Shown here one piece after another: positions 7,414 through 12,456 of a stretch of DNA of 64,000 bases (position 1 is the first letter of the stretch; each line of letters starts with the position of its first letter). A model generated the notes under the pieces. It was not told where the DNA came from, searched no databases, and saw only the letters and a list, made by a program, of their open reading frames with translations. The stretch is from Desulfonatronovibrio hydrogenovorans DSM 9292 (GTDB lineage Bacteria; Desulfobacterota; Desulfovibrionia; Desulfovibrionales; Desulfonatronovibrionaceae): assembly GCF_000686525.1 (NCBI RefSeq), contig NZ_JMKT01000008.1:186001-250000 (forward strand). The letters are read 5' to 3'. Position numbers and translations under genes: made by a program.

Positions 7414-8787
7414 CTAGTTGTTCAGACTCTGCAGAGGAGCAGGGATGAGCCCCCCCTTGGTAACAAAGGTGTTGTCAGAATGACCGGGTCCAGGGCTGAT
7501 AATGGTGGCTTCACCAAGAAGACCACCGAATCTTGCTGTTTCTCCGGCCTTTTTGCCCGGGACTGGAATAAGCCGGGCAGCAGTGGTTTTTCTGTTGATC
7601 ACGCCAATGGCCATTTCATCGGCAATTATTCCGGCGATGGTTTCCGGGGAGGTATCTCCTGGCAGGGCGACCATGTCCAGCCCCACCGAACAGACTGAAG
7701 TCATGGCTTCCAGTTTACTCAGGCTCAGAATGCCCCTGGCAGCTGCCTGAGCAATGTTCAGGTCTTCGCTTACAGGAATAAATGCTCCACTCAGGCCTCC
7801 GACATAAGAGCTGGCAAAGGCTCCGCCCTTTTTGACCGCATCATTGAGCATGGCCAGGGCTGCAGTGCTTCCCGGGGCTCCTATGGCTTCAAGTCCCAGT
7901 GATTCAAAAATTTCTCCGACACTGTCCCCGATATTGGGGGTGGGGGCCAGGGACAGATCCAGTATTCCAAACTTAACCCCAAGGCTTGCAGCTACTTCCC
8001 TGCCAATAAGCTCTCCAGCCCGGGTGACCTTGAAAGCTGTTTTTTTGATTACTTCAGCCAGGCAACCCAGGTCGCAGTCAGGGTTTGTTTCCAGGGCCCT
8101 GTCAATTGCTTTTTTGACCACACCCGGCCCACTGACACCTACATTGATGACTGAATCCGGTTCGCCTACACCCAGGTAGGCTCCAGCCATAAAGGGCACA
8201 TCCTGGGGAATATTGGAAAAGACACAGAGTTTGGCGCAGGCCAGGCCGTCTCTGTCGCTGGTAAGCTGGGCAGCTTTTTTGATGGTTTTAGCCATCAGGT
8301 AGACAGCGTCCATATTAATGCCTGCTTTTGTAGAGGCGACATTTATGGATGCGCAGACCCGGCTGGTTTCAGTCAGGGCCTGGGGCAAAGATTTGATCAG
8401 GGCCAGATCGCCCCGGGCAATGCCTTTTTCAACCAGGGCGGAAAAACCGCCGATAAAATCTATGCCAACCTCCTGGGCAGTCAAATCCAGGGTCCGGGCG
8501 ATCTTGACCATGCCTTCCGAATTGAACGGGGCTCCGGCAACGGCAACAGGACTGATGGAGATGCGTTTGTTGACCACGGATATCCCGTACTTTTCCCCCA
8601 CCTGGTCGCATACCTTGACCAGGTCACCGGCCCTGGACACGATTTTATGCCGGACATTGTCCAGGAATCTGTCCAGAGAATCAGAGGCGCAATCAAACAG
8701 AGAAATCCCAAGGGTGATGGTCCGAACATCCAGGTGTTCGTTTTTGACCATTTCTATGGTGGAAAGAACTTCCTTATGAGTAAGCAT
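7414..8787 (-). CDS. UPF0210 / PFL-like family protein (DUF711)
   Basis: 457 residues. The protein belongs to the conserved UPF0210 family, structurally related to glycyl-radical pyruvate formate-lyase-like barrels but without an obvious glycyl-radical motif. Features include CASINVASTKAGIN, VINVGVSGPGVVKKAI and a Gly-rich C-terminus (GGLLGEATIISPGPG). The true start is the ATG at 8787 (MLTHKEVLSTIEMV), after AGGGGA; a further upstream ATG would run into the ACT gene. It follows the ACT-domain gene by 19 bases. These two families are paired in many bacteria, which argues for a shared, still undefined role. Confidence 0.9.
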   Translation of the reverse strand: MLTHKEVLSTIEMVKNEHLDVRTITLGISLFDCASDSLDRFLDNVRHKIVSRAGDLVKVCDQVGEKYGISVVNKRISISPVAVAGAPFNSEGMVKIARTLDLTAQEVGIDFIGGFSALVEKGIARGDLALIKSLPQALTETSRVCASINVASTKAGINMDAVYLMAKTIKKAAQLTSDRDGLACAKLCVFSNIPQDVPFMAGAYLGVGEPDSVINVGVSGPGVVKKAIDRALETNPDCDLGCLAEVIKKTAFKVTRAGELIGREVAASLGVKFGILDLSLAPTPNIGDSVGEIFESLGLEAIGAPGSTAALAMLNDAVKKGGAFASSYVGGLSGAFIPVSEDLNIAQAAARGILSLSKLEAMTSVCSVGLDMVALPGDTSPETIAGIIADEMAIGVINRKTTAARLIPVPGKKAGETARFGGLLGEATIISPGPGHSDNTFVTKGGLIPAPLQSLNN

Positions 8788-8806
8788 GACAATGTCCCCT
8801 GATAAT

Positions 8807-9355
8807 CTAGATCCGGTGAATGGATTCGAAAATATCCTTGTGCTGCAGGCTGCAGGCCAGGCCAAGGCTGGATGAAGCTTCCTCCAGACGCTGGCGCAGG
8901 TCAGATACAGCTGCAGTGGCCGGGACATCCATTTCTATGATGATAACAATCTTGTCCGGGTAAAGATCACTCCGGTTGATGGCCCTGATGGTGGTTATGT
9001 TGCAGCCGAAATCGCGCATGACACCGGAAAGGGCGGATATCTGCCCGGTTCTGTCCGGACCTATGGCCACGGCGACAAAGGGGTCGGAATTCTGGATTGC
9101 CGGACATCCGGCCTGCATTTTTTTCAGACGGACATTAAGACCCTGGGGTTCCAGCCTGGATTGGAGACTGGCCTGGAGTTCTCCGGATGTCCGTCCATGG
9201 CCCAGGGTGAAAATGAATATGGCTGCAAACTCGCTCTGCAGAACGGTCTGGGTCAGATCTTCGATGTTGCACTCATGGACGGTGAGGATTTCGCTGACCT
9301 CTGCGACTATCCCCGGTCGATCACAGCCCAGCACTGACAGGACGAATTTGTTCAT
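8807..9355 (-). CDS. Tandem ACT-domain protein (GcvR-like)
   Basis: 182 residues with two ACT domains (about 1-77, starting FVLSVLGCDRPGIVAEVSEIL, and about 92-170, starting VAVAIGPDRTGQISAL). ACT domains bind amino acids; GcvR-type proteins use them to control glycine metabolism. Here it precedes the UPF0210 gene with a 19-base gap, the usual pairing. The ligand is not evident. It has no DNA-binding domain, so any regulation would go through a protein partner. Confidence 0.88.
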   Translation of the reverse strand: MNKFVLSVLGCDRPGIVAEVSEILTVHECNIEDLTQTVLQSEFAAIFIFTLGHGRTSGELQASLQSRLEPQGLNVRLKKMQAGCPAIQNSDPFVAVAIGPDRTGQISALSGVMRDFGCNITTIRAINRSDLYPDKIVIIIEMDVPATAAVSDLRQRLEEASSSLGLACSLQHKDIFESIHRI

Positions 9356-9934: not shown

Positions 9935-9963
9935 GCAAAAGGCCGGGTTTACCGGCCTTTTGC
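9935..9963 (-). terminator. Terminator / attenuator between hysA and its protease
   Basis: A 12-base perfect stem (GCAAAAGGCCGG / CCGGCCTTTTGC) with a 5-base loop, then a T-rich stretch (TTTATT) on the minus strand, 27 bases after the hysA stop. It would lower protease transcription relative to the hydrogenase subunits. Confidence 0.75.
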
Positions 9964-9989: not shown

Positions 9990-11504
9990 CTATTCAATGG
10001 TCATTACGTGTTCTTCGCCGGTCTCAGCGTGCAGCACGTGCACGGCACAGCCCAGTCACGGGTCAAAGGCGCGGACCACCCGGCCCACATTCACCGGACT
10101 GCCCGGGTCTGGAACAGGAACTCCGATCAAGGCCTCTTCCATGGGGCCTCGCTGGTCACGGTCATCCTTGGGACTGGCATTCCAGATTGTTGCTGCCACG
10201 ACCTGGTAGTTTTCAATATAGTAATCATCAACCTTGATATAGTGCAGCAGGGAGCCTCTGGGAGCCTCGGTCAAACCCATTCCCTCACCCTCGGCTGGCA
10301 CTTCTGAGTGGACGTAGGTCTCTTCACCAGGCTTGACTTCACCCAGCCATTTTTCAACAGCTTTGGCCACGATCAATGCTTCCTCAGCCCTGGCAATGTG
10401 TCTACCCAGGATGGAGAAGGCCTTGTCACCGAAATCGCGCATGGTTTTGAATCCTGCCTGCTGGGCTACAGCGCTCAATTCAGGATTGGTGATCCACATC
10501 CTGGCCAGGGGGCCGACCTCGTGGGGCAGGTTGTTGTATCTGGGGGCTTTGACAAAGCTGTAAGCGCCTTCCTTGTATGGATCAGGAACAGTTTTGCCCT
10601 GGCTGGGATGCAACCCGGTGGTGGCATCGTCGAACCAGGAGTACTTGACGTCTTCCAGGATCTTGTCGGTGTCAAGGGGATAGTCCTGTCCATCAGTGTA
10701 AACACCCGGCTTATGCAGAAAGGTTGTTTCTTCGTCGTCCAGGGGGAACACTCCGAAAGAAAGGAGGTTTTTACAGCCCTTGCCGGTTTCCAGAAGATCC
10801 GGATAGACTCCGCCCAGGGCGTAAACCAGGGGCAGGTATTCATTTTCAATAAAGTCAATAACTCTTTTGAAGCGCCACATGAATCCAACGATCTTGTCCA
10901 CAGTGGGGATCTCTGTGGTACCGCCAACCACCAGACCCTGGACATGGGGCATTCTTCCACCGAACAGGGCGACCATCTCGTGACAGATCCGCCTGATTTC
11001 CAGGGCCTTCAGGTATTGATCCACTCCGACCTGGTTAGTGGCGGCGTCAACCCGGATGTCGTTGTTTTCATATCTGGGTACGAATGGGGCCACATCTGGT
11101 CCATTGACATAGTCCAGGGCTGCCAGATGGTAAAAGTGCAGAATATGGGACTGCAGGTAATTGGCGCCAAAGATGAGATTGCGCATGATGCGGCCATTGG
11201 TGTTGACCTTGACATCAAAGGCGTCATCCAGGGCCCGGACCGATGCTGTGGCATGGGCTGTGGGACATACTCCACAGATCCGCTGGACCAGCTGGGATGC
11301 ATCCCTGGGGTCACGGTCAATCAGGATATTTTCAAAGCCTCTGAACATGGGGCCTTCGCAGCGGGCGTCCACAACCACGCCGTCCTTGACCTCCACTTCC
11401 ACCTTGAGATGGCCTTCGATCCTGGTCAACGGATCAACAGACACCTTTATCTTCTGACCTGGAGCATAGGCTCCCGGGGCTCTGTCAGGTTTCTTTCCTG
11501 CCAT
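9990..11504 (-). CDS. hysA: [NiFeSe] hydrogenase large subunit, selenoprotein
   Basis: 504 residues when the UGA at 10056-10058 is read as selenocysteine (residue 483). It is the catalytic subunit of a periplasmic uptake hydrogenase. The N-terminal nickel cysteines are Cys77 and Cys80 (RICGVC), with RIEGH nearby. Standard translation stops at FDP; the frame continues ULGCAVH and then VLHAETGEEHVMTIE to TAG at 9990-9992. This is the invariant DP(C/U)xxCxxH motif of the nickel site plus the 15-residue tail removed by the maturation protease. The ATG at 11504 follows AGGAGGG. A hairpin suitable as a SECIS element lies 11 bases after the UGA. hysB precedes it and the protease follows. Confidence 0.97.
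10028..10058 (-). promoter_or_regulatory. UGA(Sec) codon and bacterial SECIS hairpin of hysA
   Basis: The UGA at 10058-10056 is followed after 11 bases by a 6-bp stem (CGTGCA / TGCACG) with the 5-base loop CGTGC. The distance from UGA to the apical loop is 17 bases, within the range known for bacterial SECIS elements, and the loop carries G as its second base. Confidence 0.75.
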
Positions 11505-11541: not shown

Positions 11542-12456
11542 TTAAACTACTTCGTAAAACGGAGACATCATGTCCGGGAAGCCCGGTTCTACACAGCCGA
11601 TACAGACGGCATTTTCAACGCACCAGTTGACCCCGTTGTTCCAGCGCCTTTTCCAGCAGTCAGCATTGACATGGGGCGCTTTACAGCCGATTTCGTAGCG
11701 ACAGGCCTTTTTCTCGGTAAAGGTCTTGCTCATTACGTTCTGATCGTAGTAGCTGCGGTAGGGACAGTTGTCGTGGATATTGGAACCGAAGAAGAGCTTG
11801 GGCCGCAAATGGTTGTCAAGCTCGGGAATCCCGTAGAGAAGGACATGAGCTATGGTTCCCACCATCCAGTCCGGATGAGGGGGACAGCCGGGAACATTGA
11901 TGACAGGCTTTGCAATGTTGTTTTCCTGGTAGATCTGGGTCACCGGGACTGCATCAGTCAGGTTGCCCCAGGCGGCAGGAATTCCACCATATGCAGAGCA
12001 TGTACCCAGGGAAAGCGTGGCTGCACACTTGGCCCCCAGGGTCTTGGTCATTTCTAGCATGGTGATGTGCTGGCCATCCTTTTCACCCACGTAACAGTAC
12101 TTTCCGTCTGCAGCCTTGGGCACGGATCCTTCTATGGCCAGGAAGAACTCGCCTTCATATTTGTCAGCCACCTCAAAAAGGTGGTCTATGGCCAGAGCAC
12201 CCTTGGCTGCCATTACCGTGGGATGGTATTCCAGGCTGATGATTTTCAGGAGCACTTCCTTGATGCTGGGGTGGACAGCATTCAGAAGAGAAACCGAGCA
12301 GCCGGTGCATCCCTGGCCTTGAATCCAGATCACTGGTGCTTTCTGGGCTTCCTTTTCCATGGCCATCAAAAGACCGGGATGGACCATCTGGGATATTCCC
12401 AGACCTGCCACGGTCCCGCCGCAGATTTTCACAAAATCGCGTCTGGTTAAGCTCAT
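11542..12456 (-). CDS. hysB: [NiFeSe] hydrogenase small subunit, Tat-exported
   Basis: 304 residues. The twin-arginine signal (TRRDFVK, 4-10) directs the folded dimer to the periplasm. Iron-sulfur ligands include the proximal pair Cys50 and Cys53 (CTGC), GTCSAYGG and PGCPPHP, and a distal set from HDNCPY onward. The medial cluster region reads NWCVENAVCIGC. The Cys after NW replaces the Pro that gives standard [NiFe] enzymes a [3Fe-4S] cluster, so three [4Fe-4S] clusters are expected, the [NiFeSe] hallmark. The ATG at 12456 follows GGAGGAGGG. First gene of the hysB-hysA pair. Confidence 0.96.
   Translation of the reverse strand: MSLTRRDFVKICGGTVAGLGISQMVHPGLLMAMEKEAQKAPVIWIQGQGCTGCSVSLLNAVHPSIKEVLLKIISLEYHPTVMAAKGALAIDHLFEVADKYEGEFFLAIEGSVPKAADGKYCYVGEKDGQHITMLEMTKTLGAKCAATLSLGTCSAYGGIPAAWGNLTDAVPVTQIYQENNIAKPVINVPGCPPHPDWMVGTIAHVLLYGIPELDNHLRPKLFFGSNIHDNCPYRSYYDQNVMSKTFTEKKACRYEIGCKAPHVNADCWKRRWNNGVNWCVENAVCIGCVEPGFPDMMSPFYEVV

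Follow-up and report, generated by a model that had tools for sequence, protein, structure and literature searches.

An in-frame UGA codon and a SECIS-like hairpin in the hysA gene of a predicted [NiFeSe] hydrogenase locus from Desulfonatronovibrio

The [NiFeSe] hydrogenase family is textbook material, and a member of it can be hidden by a single codon. In a 64,000-nucleotide stretch of DNA from Desulfonatronovibrio hydrogenovorans (the window), the hydrogenase large-subunit gene hysA is interrupted by an in-frame UGA, which raises the question of whether the protein ends there or continues through a selenocysteine (Sec). Under translation table 11, the open reading frame (11504-10056) yields 482 amino acids and stops at the TGA; when this codon is taken as Sec, the same frame runs to position 9990 and gives 504 amino acids with the C-terminus RAFDP-U-LGCAVHVLHAETGEEHVMTIE, followed by TAG. 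The original prediction, made from the sequence alone, had described this frame, its coordinates, the UGA, the ULGCAVH motif, the 15-residue tail and the closing TAG, all of which proved exact, and to which we add that the gene lies on the minus strand. The features of the locus are collected in Table 1.

Table 1. Features of the hysB-hysA-hysD locus, in window coordinates
Feature	Position	Strand	Evidence
hysB, [NiFeSe] hydrogenase small subunit, 304 aa, twin-arginine signal SLTRRDFVK, NWCV motif	11542..12456	(-)	NF045520 497.8 bits, cut-off 470; 2wpn_A E 1e-124
hysA, [NiFeSe] hydrogenase large subunit, 504 aa with predicted Sec483	9990..11504	(-)	NF045518 865 bits, cut-off 780; 4kl8_L E 4.6e-221; 1cc1_L E 3e-220
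In-frame UGA, codon 483 of hysA, predicted to be read as selenocysteine (nickel ligand)	10056..10058	(-)	aligned to X (Sec) of 4kl8_L, 1cc1_L; UGA in 33/33 aligned relatives
SECIS-like hairpin CGTGCA-CGTGC-TGCACG, its start 11 nt and its apical loop 17 nt past UGA, G in loop position 2	10028..10044	(-)	strongest synonymous constraint in hysA
15-residue C-terminal tail codons after His489, predicted to be removed by maturation protease	9993..10037	(-)	mature chains of solved 4kl8, 1cc1 end at matching His
Intrinsic-terminator-like hairpin between hysA and hysD, 12 pairs	9935..9963	(-)	comparable element after hysA in 9/9 loci printed, counting that of this genome
hysD, [NiFeSe] hydrogenase maturation protease, 154 aa	9425..9889	(-)	NF045519 237.4 bits, cut-off 190

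The identity of the enzyme follows from several comparisons. The hysA product carries the hydrogenase signatures DPLTRIEGH, RICGVC and DPULGCAVH, and within the last of these DPULGC would correspond to the C-terminal DPCxxC nickel-binding motif, with UGA (Sec) in place of its first cysteine. The best solved-structure matches of HysA and HysB are the [NiFeSe] hydrogenases 4kl8, 1cc1, 5jsu and 2wpn. Alignment to known HysA proteins, which had been proposed as a check, places the Sec of 4kl8 and 1cc1 (printed X) at codon 483, and the alignment with 5jsu extends into the C-terminal tail. With hysB just upstream of hysA and hysD downstream, all three products exceed the cut-offs of the curated NCBIfam [NiFeSe] models. 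The locus has both a C-terminal extension after the histidine and a cognate maturation protease.

The cysteine of the small-subunit NWCV motif had been called specific to [NiFeSe] enzymes; the motif is indeed there, but it is also carried by Cys-type relatives (L085, L088 and L097) and by regulatory hydrogenases (PMC3701524). This cysteine replaces a proline and would serve as a fourth cysteine ligand of a [4Fe-4S] medial cluster (PMC3701524; PMC10779653), and the same genome's HynB has NWPV at the corresponding site. As judged from these motifs, it separates HysB from uptake [NiFe] hydrogenases, which have NWPV, although Sec enzymes are not alone in carrying it. Beyond hysA, a G+C-rich hairpin followed by T-rich sequence occurs in all nine loci printed, its sequence having diverged among them, which suggests that hysD may be expressed separately or by read-through. 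Further downstream of hysD, positions 7414-9355 of the minus strand encode an ACT-domain protein (PRK00194 type) adjoining a DUF711 protein (PRK05313 type).

Chance could well leave a frame open for 21 codons past a stop. It is ruled out here because the match to solved [NiFeSe] structures continues through and beyond the Sec, because UGA occurs in every close relative, and because the codons that follow are under synonymous constraint. In an alignment of 33 HysA sequences (that of the window and relatives down to 57% identity; range 57-100%), codon 483 is UGA throughout, the next seven residues are LGCAVHV in all, and the tail after the UGA is conserved. Cysteine codons occupy this position from 53% identity downward (Firmicutes among others), and UGA recurs in two sequences at 52-54% identity (L078 and L081). 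Comparison with a Desulfonatronovibrio sp. of the same genus (L060, 91% identical) shows that, of the 482 codons before the UGA, 231 differ synonymously and 41 non-synonymously; the frame is intact and, by this comparison, under purifying selection. Among five other genomes of the genus, hysA was found in two (G002 and G004), and a close match was tentatively absent from three drafts (G001, G003 and G005). The C-terminus itself varies: five distant Cys-type relatives at 42-45% identity (L086, L093, L094, L049 and L050) end exactly at CAVH or CAIH without a tail, and therefore would need no maturation cleavage, and in two Sec-type relatives, both from metagenome-assembled genomes, the tail is shorter and is closed by TGA (HVLHA in L076, near 5430, and HVMHAKSGA in L081, near 5455).

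The hairpin predicted 11 bases after the UGA starts exactly there, with a 6-bp stem, a 5-nt loop (CGUGC) and an energy of -6.7 kcal/mol for the isolated 17-nt upper hairpin, or -14.2 for the extended stem in its wider context. In the dimensions of loop and stem, the place of the G and the distance from the UGA, it fits the published bacterial SECIS model, which calls for a loop of 3-9 nt, a stem of 4-16 bp, a G among the first two loop nucleotides and a distance of 16-37 nt from the UGA (PMC13188914). Such a structure could still be something other than a SECIS, its nucleotide conservation reflecting codon preference or short divergence: its stability does not exceed that of dinucleotide shuffles (z 0.26), and 8% of synonymous recodings that follow the gene's own codon usage yield a comparable 6-bp hairpin in an allowed place. 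For these two reasons the energy tests were not used as primary evidence. An Rfam scan of the window returned no SECIS family at gathering score, a tRNA-Leu being the sole match. What makes this alternative very improbable, besides the fit to the model, is that the constraint is local and at its strongest in hysA just where the hairpin lies. Across the 33 sequences, the same residue is given by the same codon at a frequency of 0.82 in the ten codons after the UGA, against 0.45 across hysA, the highest of 484 windows along the gene, and in a permutation among conserved columns, 0 of 20000 draws reached the value of those just after the UGA. Stem cells are paired in 99.3% of cases over 25 distinct sequences; a single stem pair is mismatched in the close relative L060, and in Halodesulfovibrio (L071) a compensatory GC to UA change keeps the stem even though it turns His to Asn in the protein. 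There is so little variation in the region that covariation is thin, at one compensatory change in 25 sequences, and the evidence for the hairpin is its synonymous constraint together with its agreement with the SECIS model, not its energy. A tentative extension, less probable than not, is that the SECIS dictates the peptide after the Sec, with ULGCAVHVLHA kept partly for the bases that the element needs, which would account for the substitution in Halodesulfovibrio.

If hysA were instead a decayed gene, the UGA would be a genuine nonsense mutation, leaving the organism to rely on its other [NiFe] hydrogenase. A second complete [NiFe] large subunit, proposed beforehand as a sign of such decay, was looked for and does exist in the genome (G000:C9:289549-291030), with a Cys codon (TGC) at the position in question. 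We consider it a separate HynAB-type enzyme, because it is only 36% identical to HysA, has TGC at this codon and is paired with a small subunit bearing NWPV; as a paralogue, it does not show hysA to be decayed. The invariant UGA, the intact frame with its excess of synonymous differences and the conserved tail all speak against decay, and on this conservation evidence we reject that reading, to which we assign almost no probability.

Reading the UGA as Sec presupposes the machinery to do so, and selA, selB, selC and selD, for which a search had been proposed, are all present in the genome (2.94 Mb, 98.9% complete), as in bacteria that make selenoproteins. The tRNA-Sec scores 82 bits, over its cut-off, and is called by ARAGORN as tRNA-SeC with anticodon tca (UCA); SelB (403.5 bits), SelA (617.6 bits) and SelD (376.9 bits) all exceed theirs as well. 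Decoding by a near-cognate tRNA, or a general reassignment of UGA (for example to Trp), would also fit a hysA frame that is open under any UGA-sense reading, but the chance of it is negligible given the Sec found at this site in solved relatives and the Cys in more distant ones, the complete Sec machinery, and the lack of any other in-frame UGA in hysA.

UGA also occurs within a formate dehydrogenase alpha subunit gene of the same genome. Several other frames have an in-frame TGA: selD has one and is likewise a selenoprotein gene (GAGUASK; L018 1399-2448); an Mvh/Vhu-like large subunit (DPUMSCATH; L025 1384-2832; G000:C8:533052-534419) represents a second selenium hydrogenase, similar UGA copies of which are found in many relatives; and a short HesB-like frame (AAGUGGP; L113; G000:C13:1215-1445) scores below its family cut-off.

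We hold with near certainty that hysB, hysA and hysD form a functional locus for a periplasmic [NiFeSe] hydrogenase in a sulfate reducer resembling Desulfonatronovibrio, and that the UGA is recoded as Sec. This reading draws on direct observations, namely the sequence, the family membership of the three products, the conserved UGA, the constrained hairpin and a complete set of Sec genes. By analogy with the family, a ribosome translating hysA would reach the UGA at codon 483, where the stem-loop 11 nt downstream would recruit SelB with Sec-tRNA for selenocysteine to be inserted. Sec483 and Cys486 would then act as the C-terminal nickel ligands, with Cys77 and Cys80 (of RICGVC) as the N-terminal pair. 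Once the Ni-Fe centre is loaded, HysD would be expected to cleave after His489, so that the 15-residue tail is lost, and the Tat signal of HysB would take the heterodimer across the membrane, where the predicted H2 chemistry and activity would follow those of known members.

The original prediction warned that standard annotation loses the active site. An annotated protein of 482 residues would indeed be without Sec483, Cys486 and the cleavage site, that is, without nickel ligands and the protease site, and the warning holds for gene callers that stop at UGA, but not for NCBIfam, whose model NF045518, of type 'exception', spans the HysA C-terminus. Truncated HysA annotation has already been published (Tamura et al. 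2016; PMC4730141), and a 2026 review notes that pipelines still often err (PMC13188914); a literature search on the handling of selenoproteins by PGAP found nothing specific. Our statement on annotation accordingly rests on the existence of 'exception' models and on these two publications. The kind of enzyme, the UGA recoding and the annotation problem are all already known, and the locus is an ordinary, well-formed member of its family. As far as sequence can tell, it would confirm that a sulfate reducer resembling Desulfonatronovibrio has a selenium-dependent hydrogenase, and it might serve as a source of an enzyme that produces H2 and tolerates O2. For annotators it is a reminder that two nickel ligands are lost when a gene call is blind to UGA.

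Among known systems, HysAB of Desulfomicrobium baculatum (1cc1, 4kl8) shares with the window's enzyme the Sec at the same nickel-ligand position, the DPULGCAVH end and the small-subunit NWCV and cysteines, and it is likewise encoded in a set of three genes for small subunit, large subunit and protease (PMC10362691); the window's protein lacks a few short insertions, and the remaining differences are ordinary sequence divergence. With the periplasmic HysAB of Desulfovibrio vulgaris Hildenborough (2wpn, 5jsu), it shares an alignment past the cleavage site, the VLHAE.G tail and the small-subunit Tat motif, differing only by sequence divergence, including at the large-subunit N-terminus. The [NiFe] HynAB of the same genome belongs to the same fold family (PF00374) and follows the same C-terminal maturation logic, but stands apart in having Cys for Sec, NWPV for NWCV and only the low identity given above.
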